Origin: Pseudobdellovibrionaceae bacterium
Lineage (GTDB): Bacteria; Bdellovibrionota; Bdellovibrionia; Bdellovibrionales; Bdellovibrionaceae
Direction of reading: 5' to 3'
Assembly (NCBI GenBank): GCA_013359135.1
Contig: JABWCN010000001.1
Location: forward strand, 62,001-126,000
Length of the DNA: 64,000 nucleotides
Below, in pieces: positions 4,131-26,991 of the stretch (position 1 is the stretch's first letter; each line of letters opens with the position of its first letter). Below the pieces are notes generated by a model, which saw only the letters and a list, made by a program, of their open reading frames with translations, searched no databases and had not been told where the DNA came from. The position numbers and the translations under genes were made by a program.

Positions 4131-5687
4131 TTACCCCAAACAATTTCTATTTTTAAATAACTGATTCAACTGCGAATCTTTATCAAGGCACTCACTGTAT
4201 TTTATAGAGTTAAGAAAATTCAACATCTCTTGAAAATGAAGTGAGTGACCATTCTTCTGGTAAAAATCTTGTTCATAGATAAATAATTTTTCTTCAAAAA
4301 ACTTTGAAATTTCTTCGAAATACATAATTGTACTCAAAGACTCCATAGGCATATGTTTTGGAAACTTATCTTCATAAAAACCCAACATCCTCAAAGCTTT
4401 TGCTAAGTATACTTTCATATTCACTATCAAATTTGGTTGCAGTTGGTAATTCTCTTGTATCATCCAATTATACAAACTTTGAATGATGGCATCTTGCATT
4501 CTTATCTTTCTTAACAAAGTCGTTTTTGATCTGTTCATAGATGATTCTAAAAAACGATAGTCGGCAACCAATTGAAATCGAGAATCAAACTCAATATCCC
4601 CAGGTGAGAAAAGCGTATCCATTGAAATACCCATAGACTTCAAGAATGGAGTCGATTTAAATTTTGTTACCAATGTCTTGTACTGAGGTAAATGAGTTTT
4701 AAACTCAGAAGCTTTTAAAAAAGAATTCTCTATTAACTCAGAACAAAACATTTGGCTTTGATCTTGAGCATTCATATTAAAATCATAAGGAATATTTTTA
4801 TTGTGCGACTGGATAAACTCTGTAGCAATTTTAAAAGCCTCTCGACCTGCCTTTAAGGCTACTTCTTTGTCTTCAAATCGCAGTAAAACTACTCTTGGAT
4901 CCTTCTGCGTCAACCAATCATTTAAACTGGAAATTTTAGATCCATAGGGAATTAATGCCTCTACAATGACTTTTTCATTGTTTTCATCTAACCCAACGAT
5001 AGCTAGATGGCTAAACTGCATCTCTGCATCGCCAATCCTTGCAATCATAGCACTCATATAACTTTGCCCTCGAATCATTAAAATATCTCCGGAATGTAGC
5101 ATATCTTTGATATCGCCAATCTTCCTAAGAATGCCACTCGATGAATCACCTTTTTCAAAATTTGACATCAATTGAGGAGATTTTGCCTGAAGAATACCAG
5201 ATTCACTAGGCACAATAACATTTTGATCTACAAGCCACTCTATAAGCATTTCTTCCATAAATCGAATATACCTAGTAGCAGTTTTAATGGACTGTAAGCA
5301 CTGATAATTTAGTTTATTATCTACTGCTAACTCTTTTTGCTTATCCCTTATCAAACCTCTTATCTGAAACAAGCGATTCAGAGTTTCTATACCTTGCTCT
5401 TTCAAAATTTGTTTATCATTATCAGTTCTTGGAAAAAAACTATTACTTGTTAAATTGTCGATCTTCTTAATCCGCTCTAGTATGTAATCTACACAATTTT
5501 GCGAATCATTTTTAAGTGTCTTTAACACTAAGTAATTCTCTTTTACCTTTTCAACAAAGTTAAGTGGCTTATCAACCAAAGTTTTAACATCCTGAACTAG
5601 TTCTTTATGTTCTTGAGCTACTAATACTTGAGATAAGAGAATAATAGTAAAACTCAACTTGAATACAAAACTGAAGCTCTTATTCAT
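4131..5687 (-). CDS. secreted YiiX/YebB-type permuted papain-like cysteine hydrolase
   Basis: Probably a periplasmic hydrolase or amidase. After a signal peptide (about residues 1-25) and a helical region there is a permuted NlpC/P60 core. It shows SGDILMIRG, the catalytic His in FSHLAIVG, an acidic residue in VEALIP, and the catalytic Cys in MFCSELIENSF; these lie near residues 227, 243 and 315 counted from the chosen start. A C-terminal helical region of about 190 residues follows. I chose ATG at 5687, with AAGGAAG upstream, over an in-frame GTG at 5714. The substrate cannot be read from the sequence: peptidoglycan peptides or lipid amides are possible. A terminator follows upstream, after the nuo operon. 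Confidence 0.75.
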   Translation of the reverse strand: MNKSFSFVFKLSFTIILLSQVLVAQEHKELVQDVKTLVDKPLNFVEKVKENYLVLKTLKNDSQNCVDYILERIKKIDNLTSNSFFPRTDNDKQILKEQGIETLNRLFQIRGLIRDKQKELAVDNKLNYQCLQSIKTATRYIRFMEEMLIEWLVDQNVIVPSESGILQAKSPQLMSNFEKGDSSSGILRKIGDIKDMLHSGDILMIRGQSYMSAMIARIGDAEMQFSHLAIVGLDENNEKVIVEALIPYGSKISSLNDWLTQKDPRVVLLRFEDKEVALKAGREAFKIATEFIQSHNKNIPYDFNMNAQDQSQMFCSELIENSFLKASEFKTHLPQYKTLVTKFKSTPFLKSMGISMDTLFSPGDIEFDSRFQLVADYRFLESSMNRSKTTLLRKIRMQDAIIQSLYNWMIQENYQLQPNLIVNMKVYLAKALRMLGFYEDKFPKHMPMESLSTIMYFEEISKFFEEKLFIYEQDFYQKNGHSLHFQEMLNFLNSIKYSECLDKDSQLNQLFKNRNCLG

Positions 5688-24785: not shown

Positions 24786-25586
24786 TCAAAATCCAGGTAA
24801 AAACAAATTAAAGTACCACTCACTTAAGTTTTTCCCATAAAAAATAAAAATCCCTGCACCTAAGACTAGATAAGGGCCAAAAGGGATCGCTGTTTTTAGT
24901 CCGTCCTTTGATTTTAAAGCATATAAAATTCCAACTATAGAACCTAATATAGCTGAGCTCATAATAACAAATGGAATAGCCTTCCAACCAATCACAGCTC
25001 CTATCCACGCTAGAAGCTTAATATCGCCACCACCCATGCCTTCCTTTCCGGTAAAAAGAAAATACACATAAGCTAAAAGCCATAAGAAACCACCTCCCAT
25101 TAAAACCCCTAAAAAAGCTTCCATGAATTCTCTCTCTGGATTGAGTAGTGCTCCCAGCAAACCAATCACAATTCCAGAAAGGGTAAATTCATCTGGAAGT
25201 ATCATGTGATCTAGGTCAATAAAAGAACTCACCAAAGCTGCAAATAAAAAAAGGAGTACTTCTATCAAGTAAAAGTGAAAACCAATTTTTAAATAGGCAA
25301 GACTAAACAAGGCCCCACACAAAAACTCTACAATCGGATATCTAATTGAAAAGGAAGCTCCACACTTTCTACATTTTCCTCTAAGCAAAACCCAAGAAAC
25401 TATTGGAATATTATCAAACCAAGAAATTTTTCCGTGACAAGAATAACAATAAGACCTTGGTCTAATAACGCTTTCATTTTTTGGCATTCGGTAAATCAAG
25501 ACATTTCCAAAGCTTCCAAATAAACAACCGTAAATAAAAAAAATTGTGGCCCATAAAGATTCATTAAAATCAGATAAAAAACTCAT
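24786..25586 (-). CDS. pilD: type IV prepilin peptidase/N-methyltransferase
   Basis: Inner-membrane aspartyl protease that cleaves and N-methylates prepilins. 266 residues with about 7-8 TM helices. The methyltransferase-type zinc motif is C47-x2-C50 and C72-x2-C75. Protease aspartates are in SFIDLDHMILPDEF (D124/D126) and GGGDIKL (D188). It is the first gene of the pil operon. AGGAGA lies ten bases before the ATG. It is divergent from the Cys-rich lipoprotein gene with a 36-base gap. Confidence 0.95.
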   Translation of the reverse strand: MSFLSDFNESLWATIFFIYGCLFGSFGNVLIYRMPKNESVIRPRSYCYSCHGKISWFDNIPIVSWVLLRGKCRKCGASFSIRYPIVEFLCGALFSLAYLKIGFHFYLIEVLLFLFAALVSSFIDLDHMILPDEFTLSGIVIGLLGALLNPEREFMEAFLGVLMGGGFLWLLAYVYFLFTGKEGMGGGDIKLLAWIGAVIGWKAIPFVIMSSAILGSIVGILYALKSKDGLKTAIPFGPYLVLGAGIFIFYGKNLSEWYFNLFLPGF

Positions 25587-25622: not shown

Positions 25623-26204
25623 ATGACTTTTAAAATGATTAATTTAGGTTCTTTATTTTTTTTATTTCCATTCATTGTTGGAATATCAAGCTGTGGCAAC
25701 TTACAAAACCGATCACCCCAAAGTGAAAGCACTGTTAGTATTTTTAGTCCCAAAGTCAACGCTGAGAAGCAAGAGGTAAAAAAATTTTCAGTTGCATTTT
25801 TAAAAAAACAATACATAAAAATTTTATTAGGAAAGCATGGCGACTTAAAACAGGTCAGCAAAGGCGATTGTAAAGCCTTTACAGCAGAAGATGAGATTTA
25901 CTGCACTAGCAACGATTGCAAGGCAATTTTAAAAAAACAACCTACATTTTGTGAAAATAATAACTCTGACTGCAAAGCTCTTCTAGATGATAATTGGCAA
26001 TTATGCCAATCAGATAGCTGTAAAGCAGTTCTGAAAGATAATATCACCGAGTGTAATGAAAAAAATTTTCACTGTAAAAGCCTATTTACTCCTGCTCTAT
26101 GTAAAACATCAGACTGTGAGGCTGTACTAAAAGAATTTACCTACAAGTGTGAAAGCCCTTTTTGTAAGGGGATTCTCAAGGAAAACCCAACAGAGTGTGA
26201 TTAA
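25623..26204 (+). CDS. lipoprotein with seven Cys-pair repeats
   Basis: 193 residues. Lipobox ISSC (C24) predicts a lipid anchor. Residues 81-193 consist of seven units, each beginning with a CKA or CKx tag and holding two Cys. The 14 Cys are at 83/94, 99/110, 117/128, 133/144, 151/160, 165/176 and 181/192, so the unit is C-x10-C (x8 once) with 4- or 6-residue linkers. Unit starts read GDCKAF, NDCKAI, SDCKAL, DSCKAV, FHCKSL, SDCEAV, PFCKGI. One disulfide per unit is likely, giving a solenoid or string of small loops (inference). I do not recognise the family. It stands alone between pilD and the ABC genes. Confidence 0.85.
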   Translation: MTFKMINLGSLFFLFPFIVGISSCGNLQNRSPQSESTVSIFSPKVNAEKQEVKKFSVAFLKKQYIKILLGKHGDLKQVSKGDCKAFTAEDEIYCTSNDCKAILKKQPTFCENNNSDCKALLDDNWQLCQSDSCKAVLKDNITECNEKNFHCKSLFTPALCKTSDCEAVLKEFTYKCESPFCKGILKENPTECD

Positions 26205-26229: not shown

Positions 26230-26991
26230 TTAAGTGATATCTTTTTTATTAAATTTACGTACTCCTAAACTTAGGAATAAAAAAATCCATAAAGAGAAAT
26301 ATCCGATCATAAAAATAAACTCCTGAACTGGAATAGATTGCTTCAAATAATAAATACTTTTCCAATTCATGCGATAAAACTGAGGACTAACAAACTCTAA
26401 AACTTTGTAGTATTGAGTTATTGTCGGATCCTTCATCATTTTCACAAAGTAATCTACATTATTAATCCAGTGGCCATAAAGGTAAAAACTCAAGCCAAAC
26501 AACAAGCTCAACACCGGTCGAATAATAACACTTAAAAACAATACAAGAGAAAAAACTACTGTCACCTTCATAAAAATATTAACTAGAATCATTACTGAAT
26601 TGAAAAAATATTCAGCATTCATAAAGAAGAGATTCAGCAACAACATTAGAAATACTAAATTTAACAACATCAGAAATACTAGACCAAAAAATTTTCCTAT
26701 TAAAAACTGAGCTCTTGAAATAGGTTTAGCTAACAAAAGCAAACAAGTTTGCTTTTCTATTTCCTTGTGAATTATGTAGCTTCCTGAAAACAAAGCTAGT
26801 CCCAAACTAGAAATCTCGATCGTTGCTAATCCCAAATCAGCAAGAATTCTTTGATATTCAAACAGAGATAAATTACCAAGCCCAATACTTAATAAAATTA
26901 AAAAAATAGAAATAAAAATAATAACAATAAATAATTTTTCTCTGACAAGTTCTAAAAAAGTGGCTTTACTAATCAAGAACATACTTTTCAT
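26230..26991 (-). CDS. ABC-2-type transporter permease (NosY-like)
   Basis: 253 residues with six predicted TM helices (about 19-40, 54-72, 100-125, 135-165, 170-190, 225-245) and a cytoplasmic stretch with KEIEKQTCLLLLAKPISRAQFLIGK, typical of ABC-2 and NosY-type permeases. No periplasmic domain. Start overlaps the ATPase gene by 4 bases. The substrate is unknown. Confidence 0.82.
   Translation of the reverse strand: MKSMFLISKATFLELVREKLFIVIIFISIFLILLSIGLGNLSLFEYQRILADLGLATIEISSLGLALFSGSYIIHKEIEKQTCLLLLAKPISRAQFLIGKFFGLVFLMLLNLVFLMLLLNLFFMNAEYFFNSVMILVNIFMKVTVVFSLVLFLSVIIRPVLSLLFGLSFYLYGHWINNVDYFVKMMKDPTITQYYKVLEFVSPQFYRMNWKSIYYLKQSIPVQEFIFMIGYFSLWIFLFLSLGVRKFNKKDIT

Follow-up and report, generated by a model that had tools for sequence, protein, structure and literature searches.

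What kind of protein is encoded by a short open reading frame of Pseudobdellovibrionaceae bacterium whose cysteines follow one another at almost constant intervals, and does it stand alone or belong to a family? The frame lies in the window, that is, the whole stretch of 64,000 nucleotides analysed here, and had been predicted from the letters of the DNA to encode a lipoprotein made of seven cysteine-pair repeats. By sequence comparison, its product is a diverged member of a family found in three phyla, and so it is not an orphan.

The reading frame and its coordinates proved exact, and its product carries a lipoprotein signal peptide and a lipobox, GISS-C, at the N terminus (Table 1). The N termini of the orthologues within the genus are hydrophobic as well, and end in most cases with a lipobox-like cysteine. 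The window protein holds 15 cysteines in total, consisting of the lipobox Cys24 and 14 within the repeat region (residues 83, 94, 99, 110, 117, 128, 133, 144, 151, 160, 165, 176, 181, and 192), and the translation bears out the predicted layout of six C-x10-C units and one C-x8-C unit. The residues between consecutive cysteines number 10, 4, 10, 6, 10, 4, 10, 6, 8, 4, 10, 4, and 10. The expected alternation of linkers of 4 and 6 residues is therefore correct for the first four and fails for the rest, the actual series being 4, 6, 4, 6, 4, 4. The CKA-type tag noted for each unit reads CKA in units 1 to 4, and CKS, CEA, and CKG in units 5, 6, and 7. When residues 81-193 were shuffled, none of 200,000 shuffles gave six consecutive cysteine pairs at the x10 spacing. 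The five orthologues from the same genus, with identities of 28-39%, each keep 14 of the 14 cysteines, which makes these residues the strongest constraint on the protein.

Table 1. Features of the repeat gene, its product, and the adjoining genes, in window coordinates.
Feature	Position	Strand	Remark or basis
Whole open reading frame, cysteine-pair repeat lipoprotein, 193 aa	25623..26204	+	Orthologues in all six genomes of the genus, at the same site
Lipoprotein signal peptide MTFKMINLGSLFFLFPFIVGISS	25623..25691	+	Read directly from the sequence
Lipobox Cys24, predicted to be lipidated, followed by G-N	25692..25694	+	Sequence; lipidation from the lipobox rule
Spacer ahead of the first repeat, poorly conserved	25695..25868	+	Orthologue comparison
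Unit 1 CKAFTAEDEIYC	25869..25904	+	C-x10-C
Unit 2 CKAILKKQPTFC	25917..25952	+	C-x10-C
Unit 3 CKALLDDNWQLC	25971..26006	+	C-x10-C
Unit 4 CKAVLKDNITEC	26019..26054	+	C-x10-C
Unit 5 CKSLFTPALC	26073..26102	+	C-x8-C; x8 also in the closest orthologue (L002)
Unit 6 CEAVLKEFTYKC	26115..26150	+	C-x10-C
Unit 7 CKGILKENPTEC	26163..26198	+	C-x10-C
Prepilin peptidase gene, divergent neighbour	24786..25586	-	PF06750 and PF01478
ABC-2 permease gene, convergent neighbour	26230..26991	-	PF12679

The wider family was reached with a DNA pattern that describes a pair of canonical units and matches 46 stretches of the species-genome collection. About 42 of them are tandem units in an open frame, and four look like chance matches. 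According to their record titles, the pattern loci belong to Bdellovibrionota (including Halobacteriovoraceae and Oligoflexales), to Myxococcales with Minicystis, Polyangium, and Archangium, and to Leptospirales and other Spirochaetia; pattern searches of viral contigs, phages, and plasmids found none. A profile search was positive in 19 of 369 genomes from the phylum of the window, in 16 of 379 from the phylum of Minicystis, and in 12 of 393 from the phylum of a Leptospiraceae genome, the last two counts including genomes already known to be positive. The distribution is thus patchy, with one copy per genome in most cases.

In a typical relative, a signal peptide and a brief N-terminal region with the motif GYRSWSxGD precede six exact 16-residue units. 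The number of units, whose variation had been suggested as a check on the prediction, does differ among the relatives, where arrays of 5, 7, and 9 units are found besides those of 6. The window protein has the signal peptide and the tandem units of the form DC[KR][AG]hh-x6-C-x3 (C-x10-C, C-x4-C, 16 aa), and a lipobox-like N terminus such as its own can be read in seven relatives. A single-sequence search with this protein reached other genera (5.8e-9 and 1.8e-8), and the family profile, of which the window protein is itself a row, matches it at 2.5e-26. On this evidence it is a diverged, seven-unit, lipid-anchored member of a family of stand-alone secreted proteins, most of which have six units. 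A further layout is seen in five Myxococcota proteins, where the units alternate in a two-unit pattern of 32 residues (GD[AP]SYC, then xDKSYC); in one of these, L074, the Ser codon alternates along the pattern too.

In the genomes of the genus, the repeat gene lies antisense between the genes for the ABC-2 permease and the prepilin peptidase, with pilM and other pilus genes coming next. The arrangement was compared with that at 25 prepilin-peptidase loci, all in genomes that belong to the same bacterial family but lie outside the genus. In 24 of these loci the permease adjoins the prepilin peptidase without any match to the repeat gene; the exception shows the prepilin peptidase alone, and at one locus (L163) the permease match is split in two. 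Since this conserved set of genes is unbroken outside the genus, the repeat gene was inserted into it: it entered the ABC transporter-prepilin peptidase-pilM cluster as a single antisense gene in the ancestor of the genus. The start codons of the repeat gene and the prepilin peptidase gene are 36 bases apart, and these bases contain a weak promoter-like candidate site, with no indication of function. Across the 46 pattern loci, neighbour analysis revealed no shared partner gene beyond local synteny, some of its large clusters being out-of-frame readings of the repeat gene itself. In three related genomes, the family gene lies beside a gene that, read by eye, is thiol-peroxidase-like, as part of local synteny. 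In a Myxococcota genome, a 392-aa Cys-rich open frame with repeats of the CCDTSWDxxC type (L096, 929-2104, minus strand) is found directly upstream of the family gene.

The original prediction also considered a disulfide-linked surface or periplasmic protein likely, and this is supported. The window genome encodes a 397-aa VKOR-DsbA fusion (C74:42035-43162), a search of the same genome for DsbB giving no match, and its exported proteins can probably be oxidised. Together with the lipoprotein signal, the fusion makes disulfides plausible. Regarding their pairing, all arrays start and finish with a cysteine, so that pairs formed within C-x10-C would use every cysteine, whereas pairs formed across C-x4-C would leave the first and the last, either paired together or free. 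One relative bears on this choice: L064, from Bdellovibrio MAG_58 (4436-5143, minus strand), has a nine-unit array in which exactly one C-x4-C pair has been lost, to Ala (GCA) and Val (GTA), with the nearby units intact. This co-loss favours C-x4-C pairing, but about 1 in 17 double losses of this kind would hit such a pair by chance alone.

The explanation that we consider rather likely is a rod of repeats, stapled by disulfides, that acts at the cell envelope as a binding or structural scaffold. The exported, lipid-anchored protein would carry, in its C-terminal 110 residues, seven modules of about 16 residues, each with one short helix (xDCKAILK) and then a brief second turn that closes with a cysteine. 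Stapled by disulfides, these modules would make up a stiff rod or superhelix standing on the cell envelope, most likely on the outer membrane, and serving there for binding or as a structural scaffold. The repeats, the export signal, the family, the conserved cysteines, and the insertion site are observed; for the window protein, we infer the disulfides, the outer-membrane location, and the scaffold role.

Structure prediction bears mainly on the fold of the modules. With 37 sequences, AlphaFold made residues 54-193 of the window protein mostly helical, in segments of 8-9 residues with short turns between them, at a mean pLDDT of 74.7 and a pTM of 0.68; this was the one confident model of five, the other four reaching 43-48. 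The modules may well be helical, as D-[AP]-S-Y-C and D-C-K-A resemble the starts of helices. Foldseek gave no match at E <= 0.001 against PDB and BFVD, and VIA-align none at Z >= 2.

A disulfide-stapled beta-solenoid seems unlikely, although the scaffold role would still be possible with it. Each 16-residue unit would then be one coil of two short strands with a C-x4-C staple, and identical residues would stand in ladders in the manner of the Tenebrio antifreeze protein. AlphaFold does predict strands, two in each unit, for the typical relative L069, but the mean pLDDT of this prediction is 46. The better model, that of the window protein, is helical, and D-[AP]-S-Y-C suits a helix start. L064 lost both cysteines of one C-x4-C pair and no others, as a C-x4-C staple would have it, but this is a single event. 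The residues that are uniform within one protein would also suit ladders; the units of the window protein, however, are not uniform and lack the uniform residues of typical relatives.

This uniformity is best seen when position 0 is taken as the residue before the first cysteine of a unit and position 12 as the second cysteine. Fifteen six-unit proteins of the NDxYC type were compared in this way. Within a protein, 0.96 of the unit pairs agree at position 8 and 0.89 at position 10, whereas between proteins the fractions are only 0.40 and 0.30, all taken without correction for the kinship of the proteins. Some proteins have Gly throughout, others Ile, Ser, or Ala; in a second group, to which the five proteins with the two-unit pattern belong, there are versions with Trp or Tyr throughout. 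Mixed arrays such as A,V,I,I,I,A (L050) and A,S,A,A,S,A (L053) occur too. Uniform residues beside the second cysteine are as expected for a stacked or repeated contact surface. Reconstruction of the array by duplication was rejected as their cause: at position 4, identity is higher for the same slot than for other slots (0.36 vs 0.19 in group A, 0.62 vs 0.36 in group B), and the persistence of such slot-specific residues between proteins indicates that the array was not simply rebuilt. Synonymous codons within a protein are near random (0.60 vs 0.58; 0.68 vs 0.65). Within the patch, codons agree slightly more often than in shuffles (0.66 vs 0.61; 0.68 vs 0.62), and given this small excess short-patch gene conversion may contribute to the uniform residues. 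A bolder proposal, which we consider less likely than not, is that the family forms a new class of 16-residue disulfide repeats in three phyla, where the residues on one face would vary together across all six units of a protein and so offer a uniform, lineage-specific binding ladder to some periodic ligand, for instance a polymer of the cell wall or surface.

Two other functions would also make use of many cysteines or of repeated units. Metal binding or storage, in which reduced cysteine pairs would hold Zn or Cu(I) in a metallothionein-like manner, is improbable: the 10-16 conserved cysteines in about 80-140 residues would suit it, but the protein is exported to an oxidising compartment, it contains neither CxC nor CxxC, nor any His pattern, most relatives carry an aromatic residue before the second cysteine, and no metal-handling genes were noticed among the neighbours. 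Still more improbable is a polyprotein precursor whose 16-residue units would be released as small disulfide-bonded peptides or products resembling bacteriocins. The signal peptide and the near-identical units of typical relatives would fit it, but there is no consistent cleavage motif and no conserved processing or modification gene nearby, unit-position identity is kept across species, and the window units are very diverged.

An uncatalogued family present in three phyla, with so compact and regular a module, would extend the range of known repeat proteins by a small scaffold stapled by disulfides, with a possible use in protein design. The coexistence of residues uniform within a protein and residues that persist in specific units poses a testable question on how repeats evolve in step. 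For the host genus, the insertion of a single gene beside pilus-assembly genes makes its product a candidate lineage-specific surface protein.

Among known families, none explains the protein, in agreement with the view that no family of this layout has been described. The window protein has no match among Pfam, NCBIfam, PHROGs, and PADLOC profiles, nor in PDB by sequence or by profile, and a literature search found no description of the present family. Matches of relatives to DUF1623, to several phrogs, and to a methyltransferase model were set aside as weak or limited to short repetitive stretches. YdjO (PF14169) exceeds its cut-off in L026 alone, over five short repeating stretches (best 20/59 residues), and the 4-fold beta flower (PF21784, Bflower) is matched by L069 alone, at 21.6 bits against a curated cut-off of 25; the window protein matches neither.

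Three groups of proteins invite comparison. The antifreeze proteins of the beetles Tenebrio and Dendroides have short exact repeats, with a disulfide in every coil and identical residues stacked in ladders. They resemble the present family in the exact repeats, and may do so in the disulfides and ladders; they differ from it in being eukaryotic, with coils of 12-13 aa and ladders of Thr, and in the lack of any Pfam or PDB sequence match here. Disulfide mapping in Dendroides is cited in PMC2581425. The repeat region of CagY from H. pylori is likewise exported, and its short helical modules, set in tandem, have cysteines at regular places (PMC2581425), but its motif is 38-39 aa long, rich in Lys and Glu, and part of a large secretion-system protein, and the window protein gives no Pfam match. 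HcpB and HcpC from Helicobacter, with Sel1-like repeats, and Csep1P from Campylobacter are secreted alpha/alpha repeat solenoids in which every hairpin holds one internal disulfide (PMC12904459). The likeness lies in secreted repeat proteins with cysteine pairs in each unit, which would form disulfides here too, and the difference in the length of the repeat, 36 aa in HcpB and HcpC (PMC2581425) vs 16 aa here; the cysteine spacing of Csep1P is C-x8-C. Neither the window protein nor the scanned relatives match Sel1 or TPR in Pfam, and their period is 16 aa, against 36-40 aa for the helix-turn-helix unit of Sel1. Since both profile and repeat length fail, the window protein is not placed with the Hcp type, despite the fact that its presumed mode of action most resembles that of these disulfide-stapled repeat proteins.
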